Assembly: GCA_026417555.1 (NCBI GenBank)
Contig: JAOADA010000004.1
Coordinates: 124,001 to 188,000, forward strand
From: Brevinematales bacterium
Lineage (GTDB): Bacteria; Spirochaetota; Brevinematia; Brevinematales; Thermospiraceae
Reading direction: 5' to 3'
Length of the DNA stretch: 64,000 bases
In this document: in pieces, positions 32,757-45,867 of the stretch
How positions within the stretch are numbered: position 1 is the stretch's first letter
Layout: each line of letters starts with the position of its first letter
The notes under the pieces: model-generated
Databases searched by the model: none
Seen by the model: the letters and a program-made list of their open reading frames with translations, nothing else
Told to the model about the DNA's origin: nothing
Translations under genes and position numbers: made by a program

Positions 32757-34049
32757 CTAAAAGCTTACCTTTGTGCTGATACTGGTAGTGGTGAGACTCT
32801 GGATAACACCGTTCTCATCAAGTTTAAAGGTACGTTTATAGACCAAGGAGAGGATGAGATTTTGGCTCGCATAATAATTGATAAGGAGCCCAAGTTGCGA
32901 GTCCTCGCTTTCGTATTTGAAGACATCATTCCACTCAGCGATATTTTGTCTTGTCCAGGTAGCCCGAATATCAAAGAGTTGGAGGATCTGTTTATTTGCT
33001 CCCAAAGCCAAGGTAAGAGAAGGAAGAGAGGTTTCTTCCCAGTTATCTTCGATAGTAAAGTCTACAAAGAGAGCTCCCTTCATCAATTGAAGGCCAGAGG
33101 TAAATGCCCATCCTGCCGAGTGATTGGTGAAATTTTCAAGAGAATCATACTTGATTGACCGAACACTCTCATAATACGTATCAAAATAGATGGGAACAAA
33201 CCTGGGTTGGAGAATACGGACCTCAAAGCGATAGGGGATGATCGATACCACATCTCCCCGTATTCCCACCGCTTCTCCTGTTCCCTTGTTTACAATATAC
33301 CCGATATCAGCATATGGTCTCAGGGTAAACCATGGAGAATCTACAAGAGGAAGTCCCATATCAAGCCCAACGACAGTGACGGGTTTGGCATTTCCATCGC
33401 TGAACTGATAGGGTTTGTCTGCTGGTGGTGTGGGATTGGCAGGATCAAGGTCTGCAGCTACGGTGCCACCTATCTCAAGTTTTTCTAGAAGAAAGATCTG
33501 GGTTGGCTGAAGGGGACGAACATACACACGAAGTCCCATAATATCCCAATCCCATATATTGTCTACAGCAGATTCGAAGCCAGTAATTTTGAAATCCGTG
33601 TCTAACGCTAAACCCAACTTTTTTATGGCTGGGAAGTCACGCATGTTGGAGAAGCGCCGCATGATCCAACCATTCCCGAGGGTGAAATCATCAATATTGC
33701 CCACTTTGATGTAGAAAGGGTCTCCCTTGACACCATACCGGATATACAGAATCTTGGAAAGGACAGCCTGCCAGGTGTTCCATTCTGAAGTTCGAAAGTT
33801 CCACTGAGGGTCAAACTCAAGATTGAGGTCTAACCCAATGCCAAACTTGCCTATAGAAAGATCTGGCTGAAGACGAAGCGAAAGATAGTTGGTTCCATCA
33901 AGAGTGATATTTCCTACCTGAAACCCAAACGTAAAGGGGGAGGAAGCAGGTTGTGTGGTCTGTGATTGGGTGATGTTGGTATCTTCTGCCCATAATGGGG
34001 AAAGCCCAAGTCCTATGCCTATGACAAGAAGGGAGAGTTTGACTTTCAT
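32757..34049 (-). CDS. outer-membrane beta-barrel protein
   Basis: A 430-residue protein with a signal peptide ending near PLWAED, a short Thr/Gln-rich linker, and strand-rich sequence ending in Phe (ISTKVSF), as expected for an outer-membrane barrel. It is a paralogue of the barrel in the next gene (shared TLGNG, DFPAIKKLG and WDWDIMGLRVYVRP blocks). No transport substrate can be inferred. AAAGGAGG lies before the start. A candidate promoter is at 34086-34114, and the FecR-barrel gene follows 19 bases after the stop, so the two form an operon. Confidence 0.8.
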   Translation of the reverse strand: MKVKLSLLVIGIGLGLSPLWAEDTNITQSQTTQPASSPFTFGFQVGNITLDGTNYLSLRLQPDLSIGKFGIGLDLNLEFDPQWNFRTSEWNTWQAVLSKILYIRYGVKGDPFYIKVGNIDDFTLGNGWIMRRFSNMRDFPAIKKLGLALDTDFKITGFESAVDNIWDWDIMGLRVYVRPLQPTQIFLLEKLEIGGTVAADLDPANPTPPADKPYQFSDGNAKPVTVVGLDMGLPLVDSPWFTLRPYADIGYIVNKGTGEAVGIRGDVVSIIPYRFEVRILQPRFVPIYFDTYYESVRSIKYDSLENFTNHSAGWAFTSGLQLMKGALFVDFTIEDNWEETSLPSLTLALGANKQILQLFDIRATWTRQNIAEWNDVFKYESEDSQLGLLINYYASQNLILSLVYKRTFKLDENGVIQSLTTTSISTKVSF

Positions 34050-34120: not shown

Positions 34121-37100
34121 TTATGATCGATAAACTACCGCCTTGTTTTTTCCATGGTTCTTGGCTTCATACAGGGCTATGTCGGCGAATTCCAGGAGAC
34201 GCTGGAGGTTCCCTGCCTGTTTGTAATCAGCAATACCCATAGAAATAGAAAGGGATTTTTCTGTGGGAATTGGCTCCTGGATATAATGAGAGAGAATCTT
34301 TTCAAAGAATTGGGTCTGCTGCATTTTTTGATATAGCCTCTGGATAAGAAGAAGTGCTTTGTGACGGTGGGTGTCCGGAAGAACAAGGACAAATTCGTCT
34401 CCCCCGAATCGTCCGAGGAGATCTACTTTTCGGATATTCTGCTGGAGGAAAAGAGCCACTTCTTGGAGGATGGCATCCCCAATACTGTGACCAAAGGTAT
34501 CGTTGTAGTATTTGAAGTTGTCCATGTCGGTAAACACCACAGAGAAATTATAGTCTTCAGAGCGTTTGACACGCTCTTCTTCTTCTTCAAGGCGTTTTCT
34601 CAAGGCAAGACGGTTGGCACAGCCGGTGAGCATGTCTGTTTGGGCGGTGTGGTGAAGCATCTCTGCATAAATGAGGTTGGCAAGCATGGTGTTTATTTGC
34701 TTGATGGCCATGTGCATCTCTCGGAAGGTTTGCTCTGAGAAAGCGTTGTCCTCTTTTCGGTTGGCAAAGAAGATACACCCAGCCTCCTGCTCTTCAATAA
34801 AAAGAGGAAAATACATGATACTGTGAAATTGTGGAAAAAAGAGTTTCATATAGTGAGCGGCAAGATCAATTATTCGTTTCTCTTGATGAGTGGTAAAACA
34901 CGCCCGGATATTTTCATAGAGGTCAGGGGGGAGGTGTTTGACCTCATGGGAAGAATAAATAAGACTCCAATTTTTGTAATTGTCGCGATGAGAACCGAGA
35001 TAGCACACAATGAAGTCCACAAGAATATAGCGCCTGATGAGGAGAAGAGACTCTATGATGAGGGTGTTTTTGTCTTTTTGTCTCAAAAGGATTTTTTGAA
35101 GTTGGTTCATAAAATCAAGAGTTTCAAGAGTATGTTGCACCTGATTTATCTGAGCGTACAAACGGGCTGTCTCAAGGATATGTTCCTTGGGGATGGGATA
35201 ATGATGACGGGTAGGACGAACATGACGCTCAAGAAGATAATTTTGATAGTAATAAAGATTGAGGGATTGGAGACGATCGAGAAAACGCTTTTTCTGATTT
35301 TCGAAAAGAGAGGGTTGGTTTGTCTTGAGCCAAACCAGATAATCGTACCATATCTCCATTTCATTGTAATTGAATTCGTCTTGTGAGATATGGGAGAGGG
35401 CCTCTTCGTAGGCTTGAATGACTTTTTGAGAGTTGATGTAGCGTTGATAGTAGCGAGCCAAAAACCACTGAAGGTAGGCATATTCTTCATGAGAGGAGAA
35501 GGTTAAAGTATCTTCTGTTTTGGCAATGATTTCACTGGCTTGGTGGTAGTAGGGAACAAACTTGTTGAGTTTTTCTAAAAGATAGGTATGAAGGGTGGTG
35601 ATTTTGGTGTTGGAATGAATAGGGAGAGATTCGATTCCGAGTTCTTTTTTCAGATCAATGAGAAAAGAAAGAAGTTCCTCCGCGGTATCATAATTGTGAA
35701 GGATCATCTCCAGCTGTACCACATTCATGAGGCTCATGCAGAGTTCTCGATAGTCTCTGAGTTCAATATTGAGCTTGATAGCTCGATTGTAATAGTAAAA
35801 GGCTCTATGAAAGTTTTCTGCGGCAAAGTACACATACCCAAAGCCATTGTAGGCATGGCACACTTTACGGAGATCGCCGAGTTTTTGTCTGAGTTGGATG
35901 GATTTTTTGTAGAAGCGAACAGTCTTTGGGTAGTCGTGGAGGCGGCTATAAAAGATAGCAATATGGTGGAGAAAGAAGGTCTGTCGGTAGAGGTGACCAT
36001 ACTTTTTGGCCAGAGAGAGATTCTTTTTAAGATGACGGATAGTTTTTTCCTCGGAAAGAATGTCTGAGACCATCATAGCAAAATAATAATTACTCGAGAG
36101 AAAAAGATAAAACAAGGGGTGGAGTCTTCGTATGGCGGGGACAAGAGAATGATAGAAATGCTTAAACTCCTGAAGAGAGAAGTCCCCACAGGCAAAGAGC
36201 AATCCCTGGGTTGTCAAAAAAAGAGTTTTGTCTGTAGGAGGGCATAGTTGGACGGTGTGGCGAGCGATTTTGAGGGCTGTCTCTCTACCCGCATCCTTGT
36301 TGAGGTAAAAGTAGGCCTGGAGGATCTGGGCTCGTACCAGAGCCTGAATATGGTTGTATTCCTGAAGGATGGAAAGAGCTCTTTCCATAGCAAAGATTGC
36401 CTCATTTATGGATCCCTCTATTGCTAACGAAAGAGCCAGTGCCGTTAAGGTTTCTACACGTTTTTCATAAGAGAGTTTGTCTTCGTGTTTGAGGATATAC
36501 TCTGCGAGGTTTTTGACATCTCGCCAGGCCCAGTATTGCTCACTTGTTTTCAATTGGAGAAAAACCTCTTCTATCGAGGGAAGGGAACTACTGAGACTGG
36601 CTTCTTCAAGGGCATTATCCGAAAAGATGAATTCAAAAGAATAGATCTGCTTTTGATATTTTTGAAAAAGCATATTCCATTCGAGGGATTGTTCTTCTGG
36701 AAATTGAGGAACAAGACGGGTATCCATTAAAAGGAAAAGAGGGGGGGATTTAGGATTTTCAAGAAGATAGGAAACAAAGTCAAAAAAAGCAAAGGATGCT
36801 TCATTGGTACACCGAAGGATGATCACATAGTGGTGGTGCTGATACAGCAAGACAAGAATCTCGCGAAGCCCTTTGAGGATTTCTTTCTGGAAGAAAAGGC
36901 ATTCATCTCTGTCAAAATACCAAAAGTAAAATGGAGGGGGGAGGTTCTCTGGCTGAAAAATCATAGAGAGAAGCAGTTGTTTCACAAAGAGAGGGAGAGA
37001 AAGGCGGGAAAAGAAGTGATCTCGCTGTTCCAAGGACATCTCAGCAAAAAGTTCTCGTACCAGGGTGAGAAAGGGTTCATAAGGATTTTTCTGGAGGGTG

Positions 37101-37261
37101 AGGAAAAAGACACGTTTTGAGAGAGAGGATTGCCTAAAGAAAGCCCTCATGGTATGCTCAAGAATACCGAGAGAGTCTGTCTCAATAGAGACAATGGGTG
37201 GTGCTTCATCGGATGTTACAAGGGAAAGAACATCCTCAAGTCTTTTCAGTTCATCCGACAT
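34121..37261 (-). CDS. large TPR-GAF-GGDEF diguanylate cyclase
   Basis: A 1046-residue cytoplasmic protein. Residues 1-235 form a mixed alpha/beta region that resembles the degenerate ATPase part of STAND-type regulators, but no Walker A is visible. Residues 240-680 are helical TPR-type repeats (GYVYFAAENFHRAFYYYNRAIKL, DYPKTVRFYKKSIQLRQKLGD). A GAF-like region (about 710-870) precedes a GGDEF domain with FTDMDNFKYYNDTFGH, an intact GGDEF (about 952-956) and an RxxD feedback site (RKVD). It should make c-di-GMP in response to an unknown ligand or partner. The ACGGAGGG ribosome site and the promoter at 37304-37332 settle the start. Confidence 0.88.
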   Translation of the reverse strand: MSDELKRLEDVLSLVTSDEAPPIVSIETDSLGILEHTMRAFFRQSSLSKRVFFLTLQKNPYEPFLTLVRELFAEMSLEQRDHFFSRLSLPLFVKQLLLSMIFQPENLPPPFYFWYFDRDECLFFQKEILKGLREILVLLYQHHHYVIILRCTNEASFAFFDFVSYLLENPKSPPLFLLMDTRLVPQFPEEQSLEWNMLFQKYQKQIYSFEFIFSDNALEEASLSSSLPSIEEVFLQLKTSEQYWAWRDVKNLAEYILKHEDKLSYEKRVETLTALALSLAIEGSINEAIFAMERALSILQEYNHIQALVRAQILQAYFYLNKDAGRETALKIARHTVQLCPPTDKTLFLTTQGLLFACGDFSLQEFKHFYHSLVPAIRRLHPLFYLFLSSNYYFAMMVSDILSEEKTIRHLKKNLSLAKKYGHLYRQTFFLHHIAIFYSRLHDYPKTVRFYKKSIQLRQKLGDLRKVCHAYNGFGYVYFAAENFHRAFYYYNRAIKLNIELRDYRELCMSLMNVVQLEMILHNYDTAEELLSFLIDLKKELGIESLPIHSNTKITTLHTYLLEKLNKFVPYYHQASEIIAKTEDTLTFSSHEEYAYLQWFLARYYQRYINSQKVIQAYEEALSHISQDEFNYNEMEIWYDYLVWLKTNQPSLFENQKKRFLDRLQSLNLYYYQNYLLERHVRPTRHHYPIPKEHILETARLYAQINQVQHTLETLDFMNQLQKILLRQKDKNTLIIESLLLIRRYILVDFIVCYLGSHRDNYKNWSLIYSSHEVKHLPPDLYENIRACFTTHQEKRIIDLAAHYMKLFFPQFHSIMYFPLFIEEQEAGCIFFANRKEDNAFSEQTFREMHMAIKQINTMLANLIYAEMLHHTAQTDMLTGCANRLALRKRLEEEEERVKRSEDYNFSVVFTDMDNFKYYNDTFGHSIGDAILQEVALFLQQNIRKVDLLGRFGGDEFVLVLPDTHRHKALLLIQRLYQKMQQTQFFEKILSHYIQEPIPTEKSLSISMGIADYKQAGNLQRLLEFADIALYEAKNHGKNKAVVYRS

Positions 37262-38135: not shown

Positions 38136-40241
38136 CTATGGCCTAGCTTCTACCGTTGCGGTAATGGTGCTATTTCCTACATCAAAGAGTACCCTGACAA
38201 CGTCATTGTTGTCACAGGTTACAGCAATCTGTTTGCCGGAATCATAAAGGGTGATTGGACCCACTTTTGTCCAGCTTGTAAACACCCATTGATCTACCCA
38301 GTTGGCATTGTTGATAACCTTGAATTCTATTGCGGTAGAAGAGGATCCCCGGCTGATGATATTTGTCACGATGGTGTTACTGAAAGTGATTTGTGAGGTG
38401 GAGCCAGCCGTGTGGGAAAGGGTTACCGAATTTGGGTCCCAATTGTTATGATCACCTGGAAGATAAAGGGTGCGAGTGGTATTCCAGTTGGAAAAGATGA
38501 TGATGAAAAGTCCATTGGGTTGACTGGCTGAAGAGGTTGTGAAACTGAGGGGGGTAGAGGTATAGAGGGCTGTGTTCCCACTATTGTCTTTGACAGCTAC
38601 GTTGACGTAGTAGGTAGTGTTTTCAAGGAGACTCGAAATGGTAGCCGAGGTCATATTTTCTGTCCATCCTCTCTGTGACACGTTACTGCTTGCGTTGGTT
38701 ACTTCCAAGAGAGTATCAATGAGAGAAGCGTTTGTGGCGTAAACAAGAAGGTACCGGAGGTATGCCTGTGACGTAGAATTATCTGAAGCGGCTGGCCAAT
38801 AAACAACAGCAGAGGAGTTTTGGATGTTCGAGACCTGGATGGATCCTCCAGGGATAGGGGCTTGGGTGTCCTCTATGGTGTAGGAAACGGTATTGGTAAG
38901 AGAGGGGGAGAGCCCTGATTTGGTGGCATAGGCCTGGAGGAGAAAGGTTCCTCCTGACAAGCTGAGGGAGGAGGAATTTTGCCAGGAGGCTCCATTGTTA
39001 GTACTCCAGAAAATTGTTGCTCCTGAAGTAGCACAACTGAGGGTTACCGTGATATTGGTGGGGTAGGTTCCTCCTATGGGCATAAACTGGGGTGAGGCTA
39101 CTTGCGTTTCATTGATGGTATAGGTCTTCTGGTTGGTGAGGGATTGATTTCCTGTTTTTTCTGCGTATCCCCGGAGTACCCATGTCCCCGCAGGCAAGAG
39201 GATTTGGTTGGTTTTTATCCACGAAATGCCATTGGTGGATAGGTAGATATCTGCATTTTCGGTAGATGTGGTGGCTGTTACCAGCGTGGCACTTTCGTAT
39301 GTCCCTTCCTGGGGAACAAAGATGGGTGTCGCTACTCCAGAGGAGGAAATACTGTATTCCCATACATTCGTAAGAGAAAGAAAGCCATCCTTTGTAGCGT
39401 ATGCTTTGACGATATGCCAACCAGAAGGAAGGACAAGAGAAGCAGAGGATGAGGTGATCCAGTTATTGGTCGTCCAGACAAAAGAGGCTTCTCGTGTGGA
39501 AGAGGAAAAACTCAGGGTTTGGTTTGAGGTATAAGAACCACTTCCAGGAGAAACCTCTGGTGGGGCTACTCGGATGGTATAGCTTCCTACGACTGTATCC
39601 GACTGGAGATAACCATACTTGGTGGCATAGGCTTTGACTTCGTAGTTTCCAAATCCAAGGGGAAGTGAAAGAGGAGAAACTCCGGAATGGATACTTTTCC
39701 AGTTATTGGTGGTCCAGAAGATGGTGGATCCTTCGGTAGCGGAAGAAAGAGAGAGTGAAAGAGGATTGGCCGATTCTCCGGGAAGAGGAGAAAAGAGGGG
39801 AGCCGCTACTTTTGCCACGTTGGTGTAGGCCTGGATGAGGATAGGACGAGAGGGGATGGTATAACCTCCCGATACTATTGCCTTCACCCAGAAATAATAA
39901 GTCCCCTCTTGAGAAAGGAGAAGATTGGTGCTTATGGTGATGGAGCCGTTTTTTCCTATGTCGATTCCTATGAGATTGGTGACAGTCTTTTCTCCTGGAC
40001 ACCAGAGGAAAAGAAGGGAATCCACATTGGAGAGGGTTGAAAGAGAAACCTGCACGGGTATAACCAAAGAGGAAAAGAATTGCAGATTTGTTGGTGAGAG
40101 AAGTTCTATCGAGGTTTGGGTTACAGGATCCACAGTGAGTAGTCCAGGAAAACTTTCTTTGCCTTTTTCACCCAATGAGGTACATCCGACTAAGAGCATT
40201 CCTAACCAACTAAAGACAAGCCATATATGCTTAAAACGCAT
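38136..40241 (-). CDS. surface lipoprotein with chitobiase-type repeats, FnIII and glycan-binding-like C-terminus
   Basis: A 701-residue lipoprotein (signal ending LGMLLVGC). After a linker, four repeats of about 80-85 residues (roughly 140-475) each carry a pattern like PQFMPIGGTYPTNITVTLSC...GATIFWSTNNG, as in the chitobiase C-terminal (CHB_HEX_C) repeat. A fibronectin-III-like domain follows (about 480-590), then a C-terminal domain with RTLYLPGDHNNWDPNSVTL, typical of starch/glycogen-binding modules related to CBM48 and CBM20. It probably sits on the cell surface and binds alpha-glucan. Last gene of the amylase operon; overlaps the upstream barrel gene by 11 bases. Confidence 0.82.
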   Translation of the reverse strand: MRFKHIWLVFSWLGMLLVGCTSLGEKGKESFPGLLTVDPVTQTSIELLSPTNLQFFSSLVIPVQVSLSTLSNVDSLLFLWCPGEKTVTNLIGIDIGKNGSITISTNLLLSQEGTYYFWVKAIVSGGYTIPSRPILIQAYTNVAKVAAPLFSPLPGESANPLSLSLSSATEGSTIFWTTNNWKSIHSGVSPLSLPLGFGNYEVKAYATKYGYLQSDTVVGSYTIRVAPPEVSPGSGSYTSNQTLSFSSSTREASFVWTTNNWITSSSASLVLPSGWHIVKAYATKDGFLSLTNVWEYSISSSGVATPIFVPQEGTYESATLVTATTSTENADIYLSTNGISWIKTNQILLPAGTWVLRGYAEKTGNQSLTNQKTYTINETQVASPQFMPIGGTYPTNITVTLSCATSGATIFWSTNNGASWQNSSSLSLSGGTFLLQAYATKSGLSPSLTNTVSYTIEDTQAPIPGGSIQVSNIQNSSAVVYWPAASDNSTSQAYLRYLLVYATNASLIDTLLEVTNASSNVSQRGWTENMTSATISSLLENTTYYVNVAVKDNSGNTALYTSTPLSFTTSSASQPNGLFIIIFSNWNTTRTLYLPGDHNNWDPNSVTLSHTAGSTSQITFSNTIVTNIISRGSSSTAIEFKVINNANWVDQWVFTSWTKVGPITLYDSGKQIAVTCDNNDVVRVLFDVGNSTITATVEARP

Positions 40242-40767
40242 AGGTTACCCCCATACTAAAAAGTATGTAGCCAAAGAAACTATCATAGATTCCGGCATGA
40301 TAGGCAATATCCATTCGCATACCCCACGAACGTGTGAAAAGGTACTTGCCTGCGACGTAAGGGGCCAGAATAACTCCAAAGCCATTCTGAGTTCCCCTTG
40401 TTTGCCCTACTTTGAATTCAAACCCGTACACACTCGGGATGAAATCAAGACCTCCTTCGAGGGTGAAAGCTGAGAGATTGGGGAGGCTATAATAGCCTGC
40501 CACACCCACTCCCAGACCGGTGTTCCAAAAAGAGGAGTTGGTGTTTCCACTCATCTCTGCAAACAAGATTCCTCTTGTTTTTATAGGCCAGTCGATATTC
40601 CAGAGATGAAGCAGAGGATAGTCAAGCGTGACGACTATACCCCCTCCTAGAGCATCCCCAAAAAAGCCTAAGGCAGGGCTTGCTGATGTTTCCAGGCGAG
40701 GGGTTTTGCCCCATACAAGAGGGGCAAAACCTAAGAGTAGGACAACAAAAATTTTTTTGTTCTGCAT
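40231..40767 (-). CDS. small outer-membrane barrel protein
   Basis: A 178-residue protein with a signal peptide (KIFVVLLLGFAPLVWG) and about eight amphipathic strands ending in GVTYAF, with C-terminal Phe. It looks like an 8-stranded OmpA/OmpW-size barrel. Its place between an extracellular amylase and a starch-binding lipoprotein suggests a part in holding or importing maltodextrins, but that is inference. The start at 40767 follows GGGAGATATGCT; a longer frame reaching 40818 overlaps the amylase gene and would hide the signal peptide. Confidence 0.75.
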   Translation of the reverse strand: MQNKKIFVVLLLGFAPLVWGKTPRLETSASPALGFFGDALGGGIVVTLDYPLLHLWNIDWPIKTRGILFAEMSGNTNSSFWNTGLGVGVAGYYSLPNLSAFTLEGGLDFIPSVYGFEFKVGQTRGTQNGFGVILAPYVAGKYLFTRSWGMRMDIAYHAGIYDSFFGYILFSMGVTYAF

Positions 40768-40789
40768 AGCATATCTCCCTTGTTTCTTT

Positions 40790-43700
40790 TCATGGTTTGA
40801 GGTAAGGACCGTCTTCACCTATCTTTCCTGGTCCATTGAGCACATAGATGCGAGCGTTGCCCTGTCCGCTACAGGTAGCGGTGAGAGATCCTCCATTGGC
40901 GACAACCTTTGTATCCCCGGTGATGGCATCCCGATAGGTGCCTCCGGGGAGGTTATAGAAAGTAGCACTTCCAGAGATAGTAACGAGGACAAAACTGTCA
41001 ATGCCACGAGCGGTATCTGTGTAACGTCTCTTGAATGCCATGCCGTCCCCTGAGATATAGGCAGTCGAGTATTGTCCCTTTTGCAGCGCTGGGATTCGCC
41101 GGCGAATGATGTTGAGGCGTCGGATATGCTGGGCAAGTGGGTACGAGAGGGTACTTGCTACCGTTCCAGAGGCTGTATAGACTCCATAATCAGAAGCAGA
41201 GACCGTTCCCTCAAGGTAATCGCCAAAATATGCCCGGCCGGTATTAGCCAAGGGACCACTGGCTCCATTGTCGCAAGGAGCTCCCTTTTTGAATTCTACT
41301 TCTGTGCCATAATAGATACATGGAATACCCCGGAACGTAAACATAAGGGTAAGATTTTCTGCCCAGTCAGCCTGGCTTCCATTGTAACGGGTATTCATGT
41401 CAGGACCGTAATCATGGGAATCCACGTAAACAACATTCCATGTGGCGTCGTTGTAGTAATGGTCTGTTCCCACAGCGAGATTAAAGGCATCACGAGCTCG
41501 GGCAAAATTCCAGTGCATGGGGAAATCGATCACATCCAAACCTGATCTTCGGGACCAATCAGGGGTATGATACTCGTTTCCATACTGTCCCCAGAGTTTA
41601 TGGTTCTCACTTGTTGGTTGAAGAGCGATTGTGGAGGAATCATAATTATCATCCCAGAGACGTTTGGTAGAATTGGTGTTTTGAGCAAGAGTACCCCACG
41701 GATAATTGACAGATTCTTTCCAGGTATAGAAGGGAGTGGAGATGACGGGTTTCTCAAAGTTCCATATACCGCGATAGCGAGTGCATACCTCACCAAAGAT
41801 GTAAAAGTTTTCCCCTCCTCTTTGTTTAAACTGAGGGATAAACTCTTTGTTGAATGTGAGACGAGAGATGTGTTTCACCGTATCGATACGGAAGCCATCC
41901 ACTCCCCAATCAATATATTGATAGTATGCCTCACGGAGGTATTGAGCAACGACGGGATTTTCCGTATTGAGATCCACACAATCACCAGCTATCTGGGCTG
42001 TTTGGACAGTGTAATCCTCCCATCCAAGATTTTTCTCGTGGTGGTAGATCTGATCTACGTCGGTCCAGTCCTCTTTCATTGCAGTTATTCTTGCACTGTA
42101 TTGAAGTCCGGCGCTGAGGGAATCATAATTCGATGGCAATCTATTGGTATAAGGACCTTTTGTAAAGGCATTACTATAAGGTTCTGCCTGGCGTCGGTAG
42201 AACATGGGATAGATGTTTTCTTCACCAAAGTTTCCCGTATGATTGAGCACAATATCTTGAATGATTTTGATACCCTTGGCATGAGCGGCCTGGATGAGGC
42301 GTCGATAGCTATCTTCAGCTGTGGCATCTTGAGAACTCTTGTAACGATAATCCACCTTTTTGTGATTGATAGCATGGTAGCCATGGTAGTCCATCCCACT
42401 TGCGTTTTGTACTACGGGGGTAATCCATATAGCAGAGAAACCAAGGGCCTTAATATAATCAAGTTTTTTGATAATCCCTTCAAAGTCTCCTCTCCAGGCA
42501 GGATCGTTGGGGTAGTTCCCTGCAGTCATATCATCCCAACAGTACACATTGTTGGCGGGATCGCCATCATAGAAACGAGTAGTGATGAGAAAATAAATGG
42601 TTTCCTCACGGAAATCCCCTGTTCTTGTATTGGTGATGACCATAACGGTGAAGTTGGTGGTACTACTTGCCCCGCTATTGTCGGTCACAGTGAGGCTTAC
42701 CTGAAAGGTTCCTGGAGAGAAGTAGCGATTGGATACCACAGCCCCATTTCTCGTAGTATATTCTGCCCCGGTAAATGTCCATGAGTAAGACACAATACTT
42801 CCATTGGGATCAAATGAACTCGAGGCGTTGAATACAAAAGTGTTGGAGATCATTCCATAGGTATCAGCCTGAAACTGGATGATAGGAGGGAGATTTGTGT
42901 TTGAGGTGATCACTGTCACAGGAGTTGACCAGTTGCTGTTTCCAGCCCCATCGATAGCCAAAGCCTTGAGAACGTGAGGGCCATTGGTACTGTAGGCACT
43001 ATTCCACACGACCTGATAAGGAGAAGAGGCTACAGTTTGAAGAAGGGTATTGTCAATATAGAAACTCACTGATTCAATAACCCCTGTATTATCACTTGCT
43101 GCTGCCACAAGGGTAACTTCTCCGCTTACTTGACTTCCTCCTGTGGGAGACACAAGGCTCACATTCGGTACAATAGTGTCATCAGGATCACAGAGATACC
43201 ATTTGCCGGTGATTTTTCCTCCACTTGTTCCATTGGTCACAAACCAGTATTCACCAGGGGAGGTGAGAGAGAGATCGACAGTTTGAGGGCTTCCCGATTT
43301 ACTGAAAATGAGGTTTGCTGATGTGGCATTTGTGAACACAAACCGATACCAACTTCCACTCTCTGCGGTCATACCCACTCCAGGCCAGCTCACGGCAGGC
43401 ATGGTTCCTGAGGGAGAAACATTCCAGTAATAGATGGAAGGAGTTGTCCAGCCCGAGGGATTTTTGAAATGGACGATGATACCTCCCTGGAAATTGGCAG
43501 TAAATGTGATAGTATTGGTTGCCGAAATATTGTGAGCATTGTCTTTGGCATAGACCTTGAGCACATGAGATCCGCTTGTCAGACTGAATGTCCTTGAAAA
43601 GGAGGTTGTCCCACTTGCTTCAACGAAGTCTCCTTCGTCAAGAGAAAGATAGATCTTGGCTACTCCAGAAAGGCTATCGGTTGCCGTTCCAGAAACGGTT

Positions 43701-44716
43701 ATTGAGCTCGAAAGTACTGTTTGTCCATTAGTGGGAGTGGTGACAGAAACCACAGGAGCCGTGGAATCCCGGACAACTACTCGTACTGAGGTGTTGGTCT
43801 TGTTGGCAGAGGAGATAGCAGAGACCTCAATAGTATTGGTTCCTTCCGAAAGAGAAATAGGAGAAGACCAAGAAGTACTTCCTGTTGCGTTTTGCCAGGT
43901 TCCATTGTTCACCCGCACCCTGACCTGAGAAATGGTGGCGCTTGCCACTGAGGCTGTGCCTTGACAAAGGAGAGAAGAAACATTGGTGAGCATATCAACA
44001 GGCGGTGTGGTAATTATCACCGATGGCATACCGACGACCGCTGTGAAAGAAAGAACGTTTGTCAGAGAGGTATTGCTTGCCGTATCCAACGCATAGATGC
44101 TTAAGGTATGGCTTCCCTCCTCTATGCTTATATTGGTAGAAAAACTTTGACTTTGACCGTTCAGAGGGAGAGCGTTCCATGGCAGGGTATCTACTTTGTA
44201 AACTATAGCCAAAAGCCCAGAATTGTCTGAGGCATTCCCTGAAATCTCAAGGAAGGATCCCGTGACATGATTATTTGTGGGGGAAAGGAGTGTCAATGAA
44301 GGGCGGATGGTATCTTGAAAAGAGATGGTGATGTTTGTTTTGGCAGAGAGCCCCAAGTTTCCACTTCTGTCCTCCGCAAGAAGAGAGAGCTCATATATTC
44401 CCGTTGGTAACGTGATCGAGAAAAGAGCATCTCCATAGTGTTTTCCACTAGAAATAGTTTGATGGAGATTGGTGAACACTATCCCTGATTGTTTAAGGGT
44501 GAGAGAGATTTTGGTTACCGTGTCATTATCACTCCAGCCAACACTGACGAGAAGGGTAGTTCCACTCAGGGTAACTGAATTCACACATACAAGAGGGGTC
44601 TCCCTATCCTCATTGCTCGTGAGAGGACCCTGGATATCTTTCATGAGTTGACACCCTACCAACACCATTGTCACCACGATCAGAAGGATCATTCTGATCC
44701 ACCCAACTTTCATCAT
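40790..44716 (-). CDS. lipid-anchored multidomain alpha-amylase (GH13)
   Basis: A 1308-residue lipoprotein (signal ending MVLVGC). In order: about four Ig-like domains (residues 35-405; repeats such as PSLTLLSPTNNHVTG and PVVSVTTPTNGQTV), a CBM25/26-like starch-binding module (about 408-510, VHFKNPSGWTTPSIYYW), another Ig-like domain, a PKD domain (about 612-695), and a GH13 catalytic domain (about 700-1150). Catalytic motifs: IVLNHTG, FRIDTVKH (nucleophile Asp, about 945), FGEVC (acid/base Glu, about 975) and VDSHD (about 1100). It should cut starch or glycogen outside the cell. CGGAGG precedes the start. First gene of a three-gene operon. Confidence 0.93.
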   Translation of the reverse strand: MMKVGWIRMILLIVVTMVLVGCQLMKDIQGPLTSNEDRETPLVCVNSVTLSGTTLLVSVGWSDNDTVTKISLTLKQSGIVFTNLHQTISSGKHYGDALFSITLPTGIYELSLLAEDRSGNLGLSAKTNITISFQDTIRPSLTLLSPTNNHVTGSFLEISGNASDNSGLLAIVYKVDTLPWNALPLNGQSQSFSTNISIEEGSHTLSIYALDTASNTSLTNVLSFTAVVGMPSVIITTPPVDMLTNVSSLLCQGTASVASATISQVRVRVNNGTWQNATGSTSWSSPISLSEGTNTIEVSAISSANKTNTSVRVVVRDSTAPVVSVTTPTNGQTVLSSSITVSGTATDSLSGVAKIYLSLDEGDFVEASGTTSFSRTFSLTSGSHVLKVYAKDNAHNISATNTITFTANFQGGIIVHFKNPSGWTTPSIYYWNVSPSGTMPAVSWPGVGMTAESGSWYRFVFTNATSANLIFSKSGSPQTVDLSLTSPGEYWFVTNGTSGGKITGKWYLCDPDDTIVPNVSLVSPTGGSQVSGEVTLVAAASDNTGVIESVSFYIDNTLLQTVASSPYQVVWNSAYSTNGPHVLKALAIDGAGNSNWSTPVTVITSNTNLPPIIQFQADTYGMISNTFVFNASSSFDPNGSIVSYSWTFTGAEYTTRNGAVVSNRYFSPGTFQVSLTVTDNSGASSTTNFTVMVITNTRTGDFREETIYFLITTRFYDGDPANNVYCWDDMTAGNYPNDPAWRGDFEGIIKKLDYIKALGFSAIWITPVVQNASGMDYHGYHAINHKKVDYRYKSSQDATAEDSYRRLIQAAHAKGIKIIQDIVLNHTGNFGEENIYPMFYRRQAEPYSNAFTKGPYTNRLPSNYDSLSAGLQYSARITAMKEDWTDVDQIYHHEKNLGWEDYTVQTAQIAGDCVDLNTENPVVAQYLREAYYQYIDWGVDGFRIDTVKHISRLTFNKEFIPQFKQRGGENFYIFGEVCTRYRGIWNFEKPVISTPFYTWKESVNYPWGTLAQNTNSTKRLWDDNYDSSTIALQPTSENHKLWGQYGNEYHTPDWSRRSGLDVIDFPMHWNFARARDAFNLAVGTDHYYNDATWNVVYVDSHDYGPDMNTRYNGSQADWAENLTLMFTFRGIPCIYYGTEVEFKKGAPCDNGASGPLANTGRAYFGDYLEGTVSASDYGVYTASGTVASTLSYPLAQHIRRLNIIRRRIPALQKGQYSTAYISGDGMAFKRRYTDTARGIDSFVLVTISGSATFYNLPGGTYRDAITGDTKVVANGGSLTATCSGQGNARIYVLNGPGKIGEDGPYLKP

Positions 44717-44836
44717 TGTGCTTCCTCCGAAAAATAAGTAACCGTTTTCATGATTCTTTCACGGTCCATTTTTAAATACGAAAAAACAACTCAAAAAGTG
44801 CAATTTTTCAAAAAATTTTTTTGTTAATTATTTTTC

Positions 44837-44865
44837 TTGTAAGAAGATAGAAGGTATTGTATATG
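44837..44865 (+). promoter_or_regulatory. promoter of the REC-PilZ/nadC operon
   Basis: -35 TTGTAA (44837-44842), a 17-base spacer and -10 TATATG (44860-44865). A leader of about 140 bases follows. Confidence 0.55.
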
Positions 44866-44880
44866 TGCATTGTGCACATA
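44862..44880. promoter_or_regulatory. operator-like palindrome TATGTGCA-TTG-TGCACATA
   Basis: A perfect 8-bp inverted repeat (44862-44869 and 44873-44880) that overlaps the -10 box and the expected start of transcription. Its position suits a repressor site. The binding protein is unknown. Confidence 0.5.
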
Positions 44881-44927
44881 AAAAGGTCAATGTAAACTAT
44901 TTTTAAGCATATACTGGAGGGAAACAC

Positions 44928-44960
44928 AAGGGAAAGGAAATTTGCATTTTCCTTTCCCTT
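44928..44960 (+). promoter_or_regulatory. 13-bp hairpin in the REC-PilZ leader
   Basis: AAGGGAAAGGAAA (44928-44940), a 7-base loop, and the exact complement (44948-44960). It lies within the leader, 52 bases before the start, with no T-run after it, so a role in translation or RNA stability is more likely than termination. Confidence 0.5.
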
Positions 44961-45012
44961 GCCTTATAGTGAATTTGTTAATGAAAGCACTTTTTTTAGG
45001 AAAGGATGGTGT

Positions 45013-45867
45013 ATGGAAATACTGATTGTTACTCAATCGTTTTATGTTCGTAATCAGTTTGTCAATACTTTTTATCCAAGGGGAGTTACGGTATACCATA
45101 CTGACAATGCCGAACAACTTCTTGAGAAGCTTCGTCTTTATCCAGGGATTGAATTTGTCTTTATTGATGTGATTCATGAAGAGTATGTTCAGGCTTTGGA
45201 TATCCTTGCCAAAGTCAAGGCTTTTGCTGTCACCCAGAGTCGAAAGATATTTGCGCTTTTGATCTATGTGGCTATTGACAAATCTATTGCTGCCAGAGCT
45301 ATTGAAAATGGATGTGTGGGATTTGTCAAAAGTAACGTTGGTGGGGATGATCTTTTTCTTTATACGATGCAATTATATCAAAAACTCAAAGGTACACCCC
45401 CTGAACGGAAATATGTTCGTATCTCTCTTGATCCCTCCAATCCAAATGAAAGGATCGGTATCAAGTTCCGTTCTCCTATCAATTCTCAACTGTTGGTGGG
45501 GGTGATTCGGGATATTAGTTTTGGGGGGCTTGCTGTGGAACTGGTAGGGATGTTTCCTCAGGAGGCTCTGAATGTCAATACACAGATCACGAATATCCAG
45601 TTTATGCTTGATGATAGGGATGTCTATGCTGATGCGACGGTAGTAGCCTATGATTATCGACGTCGTTTTTGTGCTCTTCGGTTTACCTATCTCAGTCATG
45701 ATGATCAAGAGATTTTAGCTTCATTTATTTTCAATCGTGTCTCGTTAGGGGCTATCCCTGGTTCACGTCCCTCTTCTGAAGAGGGGGAAGTGACAGGGGG
45801 GAATGGTCAAAAAGAGCAGGAATCTTCTTCCAAGCAATCTGAGGATCCCTCATCATCGCAAGGATGA
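45013..45867 (+). CDS. receiver-like domain fused to a PilZ domain
   Basis: A 284-residue cytoplasmic protein. Residues 1-125 look like a response-regulator fold (MEILIVTQSFYVRNQF, FVFIDVIHEEYV with a possible acceptor Asp, GCVGFVKSNVGGDDL), though the usual acidic pair at the N-terminus is missing, so phosphorylation is doubtful. Residues 135-245 resemble a PilZ c-di-GMP-binding domain (RKYVRISLDPSNP, RDISFGGLAVEL, CALRFTYLSHDDQ). The tail is Ser/Glu/Gly-rich and disordered. The start at 45013 follows AGGAAAGGA. nadC begins three bases after the stop. It is a likely reader for the c-di-GMP made by the two GGDEF proteins nearby. Confidence 0.8.
   Translation: MEILIVTQSFYVRNQFVNTFYPRGVTVYHTDNAEQLLEKLRLYPGIEFVFIDVIHEEYVQALDILAKVKAFAVTQSRKIFALLIYVAIDKSIAARAIENGCVGFVKSNVGGDDLFLYTMQLYQKLKGTPPERKYVRISLDPSNPNERIGIKFRSPINSQLLVGVIRDISFGGLAVELVGMFPQEALNVNTQITNIQFMLDDRDVYADATVVAYDYRRRFCALRFTYLSHDDQEILASFIFNRVSLGAIPGSRPSSEEGEVTGGNGQKEQESSSKQSEDPSSSQG

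Follow-up and report, generated by a model that had tools for sequence, protein, structure and literature searches.

In the Sus system of Bacteroidetes (SusCDEFG), an outer-membrane barrel is encoded together with a GH13 enzyme and a binding protein, both lipid-anchored. Outside the Bacteroidetes, little has been described about the holding and digestion of starch at the surface of diderm bacteria, and there is debate over the way in which spirochaetal lipoproteins reach the surface (PMC7857515, PMC11784454). In proteobacteria, Slam, a 14-stranded barrel with TPRs, places lipoproteins on the surface (PMC7857515). LptD is the proposed lipoprotein flippase of Borrelia (PMC11784454), in which, according to a reference cited in that paper, surface display is the default for lipoproteins. 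In Bacteroidetes, the lipoprotein export signal (LES) is C-X-K-(D/E)2-X at the mature N-terminus (PMC5080379).

Here we describe a three-gene locus from a spirochaete of the order Brevinematales. The source genome (G000) comprises 2.04 Mb in 33 contigs, and the locus lies in a stretch of 64,000 nucleotides from contig C28, which we call the window. We interpret the locus as a co-regulated operon that serves starch foraging at the surface of the cell, in which a small outer-membrane barrel is most likely a dock for lipoproteins. We give this reading a probability of about 0.6.

Gene content of the operon

An initial reading of the window, made without database searches, proposed one leftward operon that encodes an amylase, a barrel, and a lipoprotein, spaced by 11 bases and a short overlap. 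The operon is confirmed by domain searches and by three ORFs on the minus strand: the amylase (40790-44716), the barrel (40231-40767), and a 701-residue lipoprotein (38136-40241). The short overlap between the barrel and lipoprotein genes also holds, and it measures 11 bp, but the spacing between the amylase and the barrel needs correction. The ORF of the barrel can open at GTG 40818, inside the amylase gene; ATG 40767 is more likely to be the start, as it is preceded by a ribosome-binding site (AAGGGAG) and is kept in both sister genomes. The true spacing is therefore a 22-bp gap, followed by the 11-bp overlap. Generic scans for promoters and terminators at the locus gave nothing clearly above shuffled sequences.

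The neighboring genes include a divergent one upstream of the operon, for a PilZ-domain protein (44959-45867). Downstream and on the same strand is a gene for a 1046-residue protein that has TPRs and, at its C-terminus, a GGDEF domain (34121-37261). A 430-residue protein with a signal peptide (32757-34049) is weakly similar to the Leptospira ImpL63 family (NCBIfam, 2.2e-9).

The amylase has 1308 residues and a lipobox (LVGC, with the cysteine at position 22). Pfam identifies its Ig-like modules as Big_7, in four stretches, along with CBM26 (PF16738, 1.6e-21; 76.6 bits versus a cut-off of 28.1), PKD_4 (2.7e-14), and Alpha-amylase (PF00128, 4.3e-42). The CBM26 module, of a starch-binding type, spans residues 415-482 (43271-43474, minus strand), and the catalytic region spans residues 696-1308 (40790-42631, minus strand). 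The Asp/Glu/Asp catalytic triad of GH13 is present, and its residues (D945, E976, and D1102) are invariant in an 11-row alignment of the amylase and ten homologs. These matches bear out the proposal of a lipid-anchored GH13 amylase with Ig-like, CBM26-like, and PKD modules. Judging by sequence similarity, the catalytic domain is of a common and widespread type. It is 52-65% identical to those in Paenibacillus, Clostridium, Ruminococcus bromii, and others, and its homologs in public genomes also include Bacteroidales. GH13 matches are present in 23 distinct ORFs of the 2.0-Mb source genome, a large set for the amylase family.

The 701-residue lipoprotein begins with an N-terminal domain. The four chitobiase-type repeats that had been proposed for it are real: four tandem repeats of about 77 amino acids each (about residues 146-457) stand out in pairwise alignments against shuffled sequences (z = 7 to 15), and Pfam finds two CHB_HEX_C_1 stretches and Fn3, just under the cut-off. 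The repeats are followed by the Fn3-like domain and then by a C-terminal domain of 131 residues (residues 571-701; 38139-38531, minus strand) that has no Pfam family. As a whole, the protein is confined to the genus.

We searched for the C-terminal module in 393 genomes of the phylum. The only confident matches outside the genus were in G352 (E = 3.5e-23) and G381 (E = 4.4e-19), which belong to other spirochaete families. In both, the module is the last one of a lipoprotein alpha-amylase, and it follows CBM26 in one and CHB_HEX_C in the other. A five-row profile of the module found no further confident member, a comparison of the profile to PDB sequences found no relative, and tblastn against plasmids found nothing. 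A structure model of low confidence (pLDDT 47.5) matched no fold, and direct profile comparison to CBM48/X25-type domains gave weak similarity (best P = 0.008). Because the module occurs elsewhere in the phylum only at the end of two amylases, we consider it a probable starch-binding module that Pfam does not cover, and a candidate new family. The sharing of this domain suggests that the 701-residue lipoprotein binds starch. The glycan-binding character that had been suggested for the C-terminus thus gains support from the company that the module keeps, but not from any Pfam, PDB, or fold identification.

Conservation of the gene set and of an upstream operator

We label the family of the window's genus f1 (G000, G001, and G002); the other families include f2 (G003, G006, G009, and G011) and f3 (which includes G004). 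The sequence-only reading had named conserved gene order in relatives as a test of its proposal, and each of the three genomes in the genus has this order, while the four f2 genomes have the combination. In both G001 and G002, the gene order is identical and the barrel and lipoprotein genes again overlap by 11 bp. In G003, G006, and G009, three genes for GH13 lipoproteins are followed by a barrel of 182 residues and then by a lipoprotein of 803-806 residues. In G011, which also has this set, the first amylase reads as two ORFs. The barrels of f1 and f2 align end to end at about 24% identity (hhalign P = 3.7e-6). The lipoproteins align weakly across their first 140 residues (P = 4e-4), and their C-termini differ. 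G006 also has a second locus, with genes for a barrel, a lipoprotein, a lipoprotein with GH13 and CBM48, and another lipoprotein, in this order. No C-terminal domain common to the f2 lipoprotein and those of the second locus was found. That the three-gene set is kept together in related species suggests a kit for surface starch foraging. Directly 5' of the f2 amylase operon are genes for two tandem, similar proteins, the second of which has LVIVD repeats (L077:2359-4687).

A palindrome, TGTAANCGNTTACA, which we take to be of the LacI-family type, lies 5' of amylase genes in G001, G003, G006, G009 (three different amylase loci), and G011. At the four sites that could be measured cleanly, it is 39, 41, 45, or 53 bp from the start codon. 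In G006, G009 (L079), and G011, the mechanical ORF opens 5' of the likely ATG, so the measured distance is too small or the site is placed within the ORF itself. The palindrome was absent elsewhere, exactly or with one mismatch, from sampled stretches of G001 (419 kb) and G003 (418 kb). The window and G002 have TGAAAACGGTTACT, with two mismatches, at the corresponding place; in the window, it is about 20 bp 5' of the start of the amylase (44737-44750, minus strand). In 548 kb sampled from the window's own genome, there were five sites with two mismatches, and the one by the amylase was alone in lying no more than 120 bp 5' of a gene. It is probable that a LacI-type repressor acts on the operon through this operator. 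TGCA elements are repeated in the region at 44717-44960, which also contains a palindrome of 19 bp, TATGTGCACAATGCACATA. This exact palindrome is not conserved in the sister genomes, where TGCA-rich repeats recur.

The barrel and its relatives

The barrel has 178 residues, with a signal peptide, eight predicted strands, a GFFGDA motif, and a terminal F; the mature protein has 158 residues. It has no match in Pfam or NCBIfam. A scan of genome contigs with the single sequence found no relatives, unlike whole-genome search and profiles, which recovered them. The orthologs in G001 and G002 are 52-66% identical to it, and pN/pS against these two genomes is 0.30-0.48, which indicates purifying selection and hence a real gene. 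AlphaFold, given a two-row alignment, modeled eight strands with low confidence (pLDDT 48), and the best Foldseek matches of this model included OmpW, OmpX, OmpA, and NspA (TM about 0.4). A model of such confidence supports no more than a small outer-membrane barrel, probably with eight strands. This agrees with the sequence-only reading.

In a class-wide search of 18 genomes, we found the barrel confidently in f1, f2, f3, and f5, and the f2 and f3 barrels align with each other (P = 6.7e-11). The barrels of this family in G004 (f3) follow Kelch and beta-helix lipoproteins. At two f3 loci (L105:2991-8147 and L224:6786-8830), Kelch and beta-helix lipoproteins alternate with barrels, and one of these barrels carries a fused OmpA domain. 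In f5, a more distant family, one barrel follows a CBM26-bearing protein, and three others are solitary, without a lipoprotein neighbor. Since the f3 barrels are beside lipoproteins that are not amylases and the f5 barrels are mostly solitary, the barrel is not a starch-specific part. A barrel found mostly away from amylases had been named as grounds for doubting the system, and here the result is divided: barrel genes accompany those for amylases in f1, in f2, and at one locus of f5, but not in f3 or most of f5. We also rejected the idea that the barrel belongs to every amylase locus, because homologs of the amylase in Firmicutes and in other families of spirochaetes are encoded at loci without it.

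Alternative explanations

At all six independent barrel loci in the order (one in f1, two in f2, and three in f3), a neighboring gene encodes a lipoprotein. If the barrel were a dedicated sorting or export partner that, like Slam, places several kinds of lipoproteins on the surface, then the starch operon would be just one client among unrelated cargo (GH13, Kelch, and beta-helix proteins). A possible sorting signal is a lead in this direction. The motif C-x4-[DE]-[ILVM] after the lipobox is frequent in lipoproteins and enzymes encoded near barrels (L075-L080, L105, and L227), as compared to 2 of 83 background lipoproteins. But we noticed the motif in the same data, it is present in only 1 of the 4 lipoproteins at two loci that we examined later, and it also occurs on an amylase away from any barrel (L120), so we rejected it as a proven sorting signal. 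The motif differs from the K-(D/E)2 signal of Bacteroidetes (PMC5080379), and the window's lipoproteins, which begin with CQLMKDIQ and CTSLGEKG, do not have the Bacteroidetes LES. The Pfam model for LptD found no LptD in the genome, which would favor another exporter, but this absence is soft because the same model was silent in a Bacteroides control. Also, this barrel is smaller than the known exporters of such a kind (Slam has 14 strands; PMC7857515), and the three solitary f5 barrels have no lipoprotein to export. Export is a possible function of the barrel, but we consider a dedicated sorting or export partner to be unlikely. We are just as doubtful that these small barrels form a lineage-specific family of outer-membrane partners, which in Brevinematales dock or export several kinds of surface lipoproteins and count the starch set as one client. 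If this were true, the family would be a candidate for the missing machinery for surface lipoproteins in spirochaetes.

Alternatively, there might be no system, but rather an ordinary secreted amylase and accessory lipoprotein genes that are linked by recent ancestry, with a generic OmpX-like barrel. Recent ancestry does not easily explain why the same combination is present in two families whose barrels have diverged to about 24% identity, or the second f2 locus and the common operator. What this explanation does account for is the widespread catalytic domain, which is also present in organisms and loci without such a barrel, as well as the genus-specific 701-residue protein and the partly solitary relatives of the barrel. 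We consider it quite unlikely. Finally, a small specific channel for the maltodextrins released by the amylase would fit the co-occurrence of barrels and amylases, seen in f1 and f2 and at one locus of f5, and no LamB was detected in the genome, but this seems quite unlikely for a barrel of 158 mature residues and eight predicted strands (barrels of about this size generally lack a sugar-sized pore) with relatives that are beside non-amylase lipoproteins or, in one case, fused to a peptidoglycan-binding OmpA domain.

We prefer the reading as a co-regulated operon for surface starch foraging. The original interpretation as a starch set is partly supported: the conserved order, the operator, and the module shared with amylases argue for it, while the barrel is not starch-specific and the 701-residue protein is restricted to the genus.

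Proposed mechanism

In the preferred reading, a LacI-type repressor would control the operon via the operator 5' of the amylase. The amylase and the 701-residue protein would be exported and then lipidated at their lipobox cysteines, which are apparent in the sequences. Lipoproteins can face the periplasm, but we infer that both of these face outward from the outer membrane. There, the CBM26 module and the stalk of Ig and PKD modules would keep the catalytic GH13 domain in contact with starch. The 701-residue lipoprotein would be a stalk of beta repeats whose terminal module, of a putative starch-binding type, captures the polymer and holds it near the enzyme. A barrel with probably eight strands is unlikely to pass sugars, and our best guess is that it is a structural partner in the outer membrane, or dock, for the surface lipoproteins. 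Maltodextrins might enter via a separate porin or via the genome's single TonB receptor.

This analysis yields a defined three-gene unit, a candidate starch-binding module, and a candidate operator for a regulon. The systematic pairing of the small barrel family with lipoprotein genes is directly testable.

Comparison to known systems

OmpA-, OmpX-, and OmpW-type eight-stranded barrels resemble the window's barrel in size, predicted strand number, and the terminal F, and one of its relatives carries the OmpA C-terminal domain. In contrast to them, it has no Pfam match and a fold of low confidence, and its family is systematically paired with lipoprotein genes in the order. As with Slam, which is often encoded beside its lipoproteins (PMC7857515), an outer-membrane barrel is encoded near lipoproteins, but Slam has 14 strands and TPRs, while this barrel has 158 mature residues and no Pfam match. 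The cell-surface amylases of Firmicutes (Paenibacillus, Clostridium, and Ruminococcus bromii) have catalytic domains that are about 55-65% identical to the window's; unlike them, this enzyme is a diderm lipoprotein that is paired with a barrel, and no dockerin is among its Pfam matches.

The window's set lacks relatives of SusC and SusD, as was first proposed. SusD (PF07980) is absent from the genome, although a Bacteroides control matches, and the only TonB receptor is outside the operon, on contig C22. (This receptor adjoins genes that look like ExbB, ExbD, and TonB; L270:5862-10739.) The 701-residue lipoprotein does not match SusE or SusF in Pfam and has a different module, which it has in common with amylases. 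The predicted eight-stranded barrel and the LacI-type operator are further differences from Sus. The resemblance lies in the co-encoding of a lipid-anchored GH13 enzyme, a lipid-anchored binding protein, and an outer-membrane barrel, and the GH13 lipoprotein is a SusG-like feature if, as we infer, it is on the surface. We propose that the set serves surface starch foraging and that it works like part of Sus, without being Sus.
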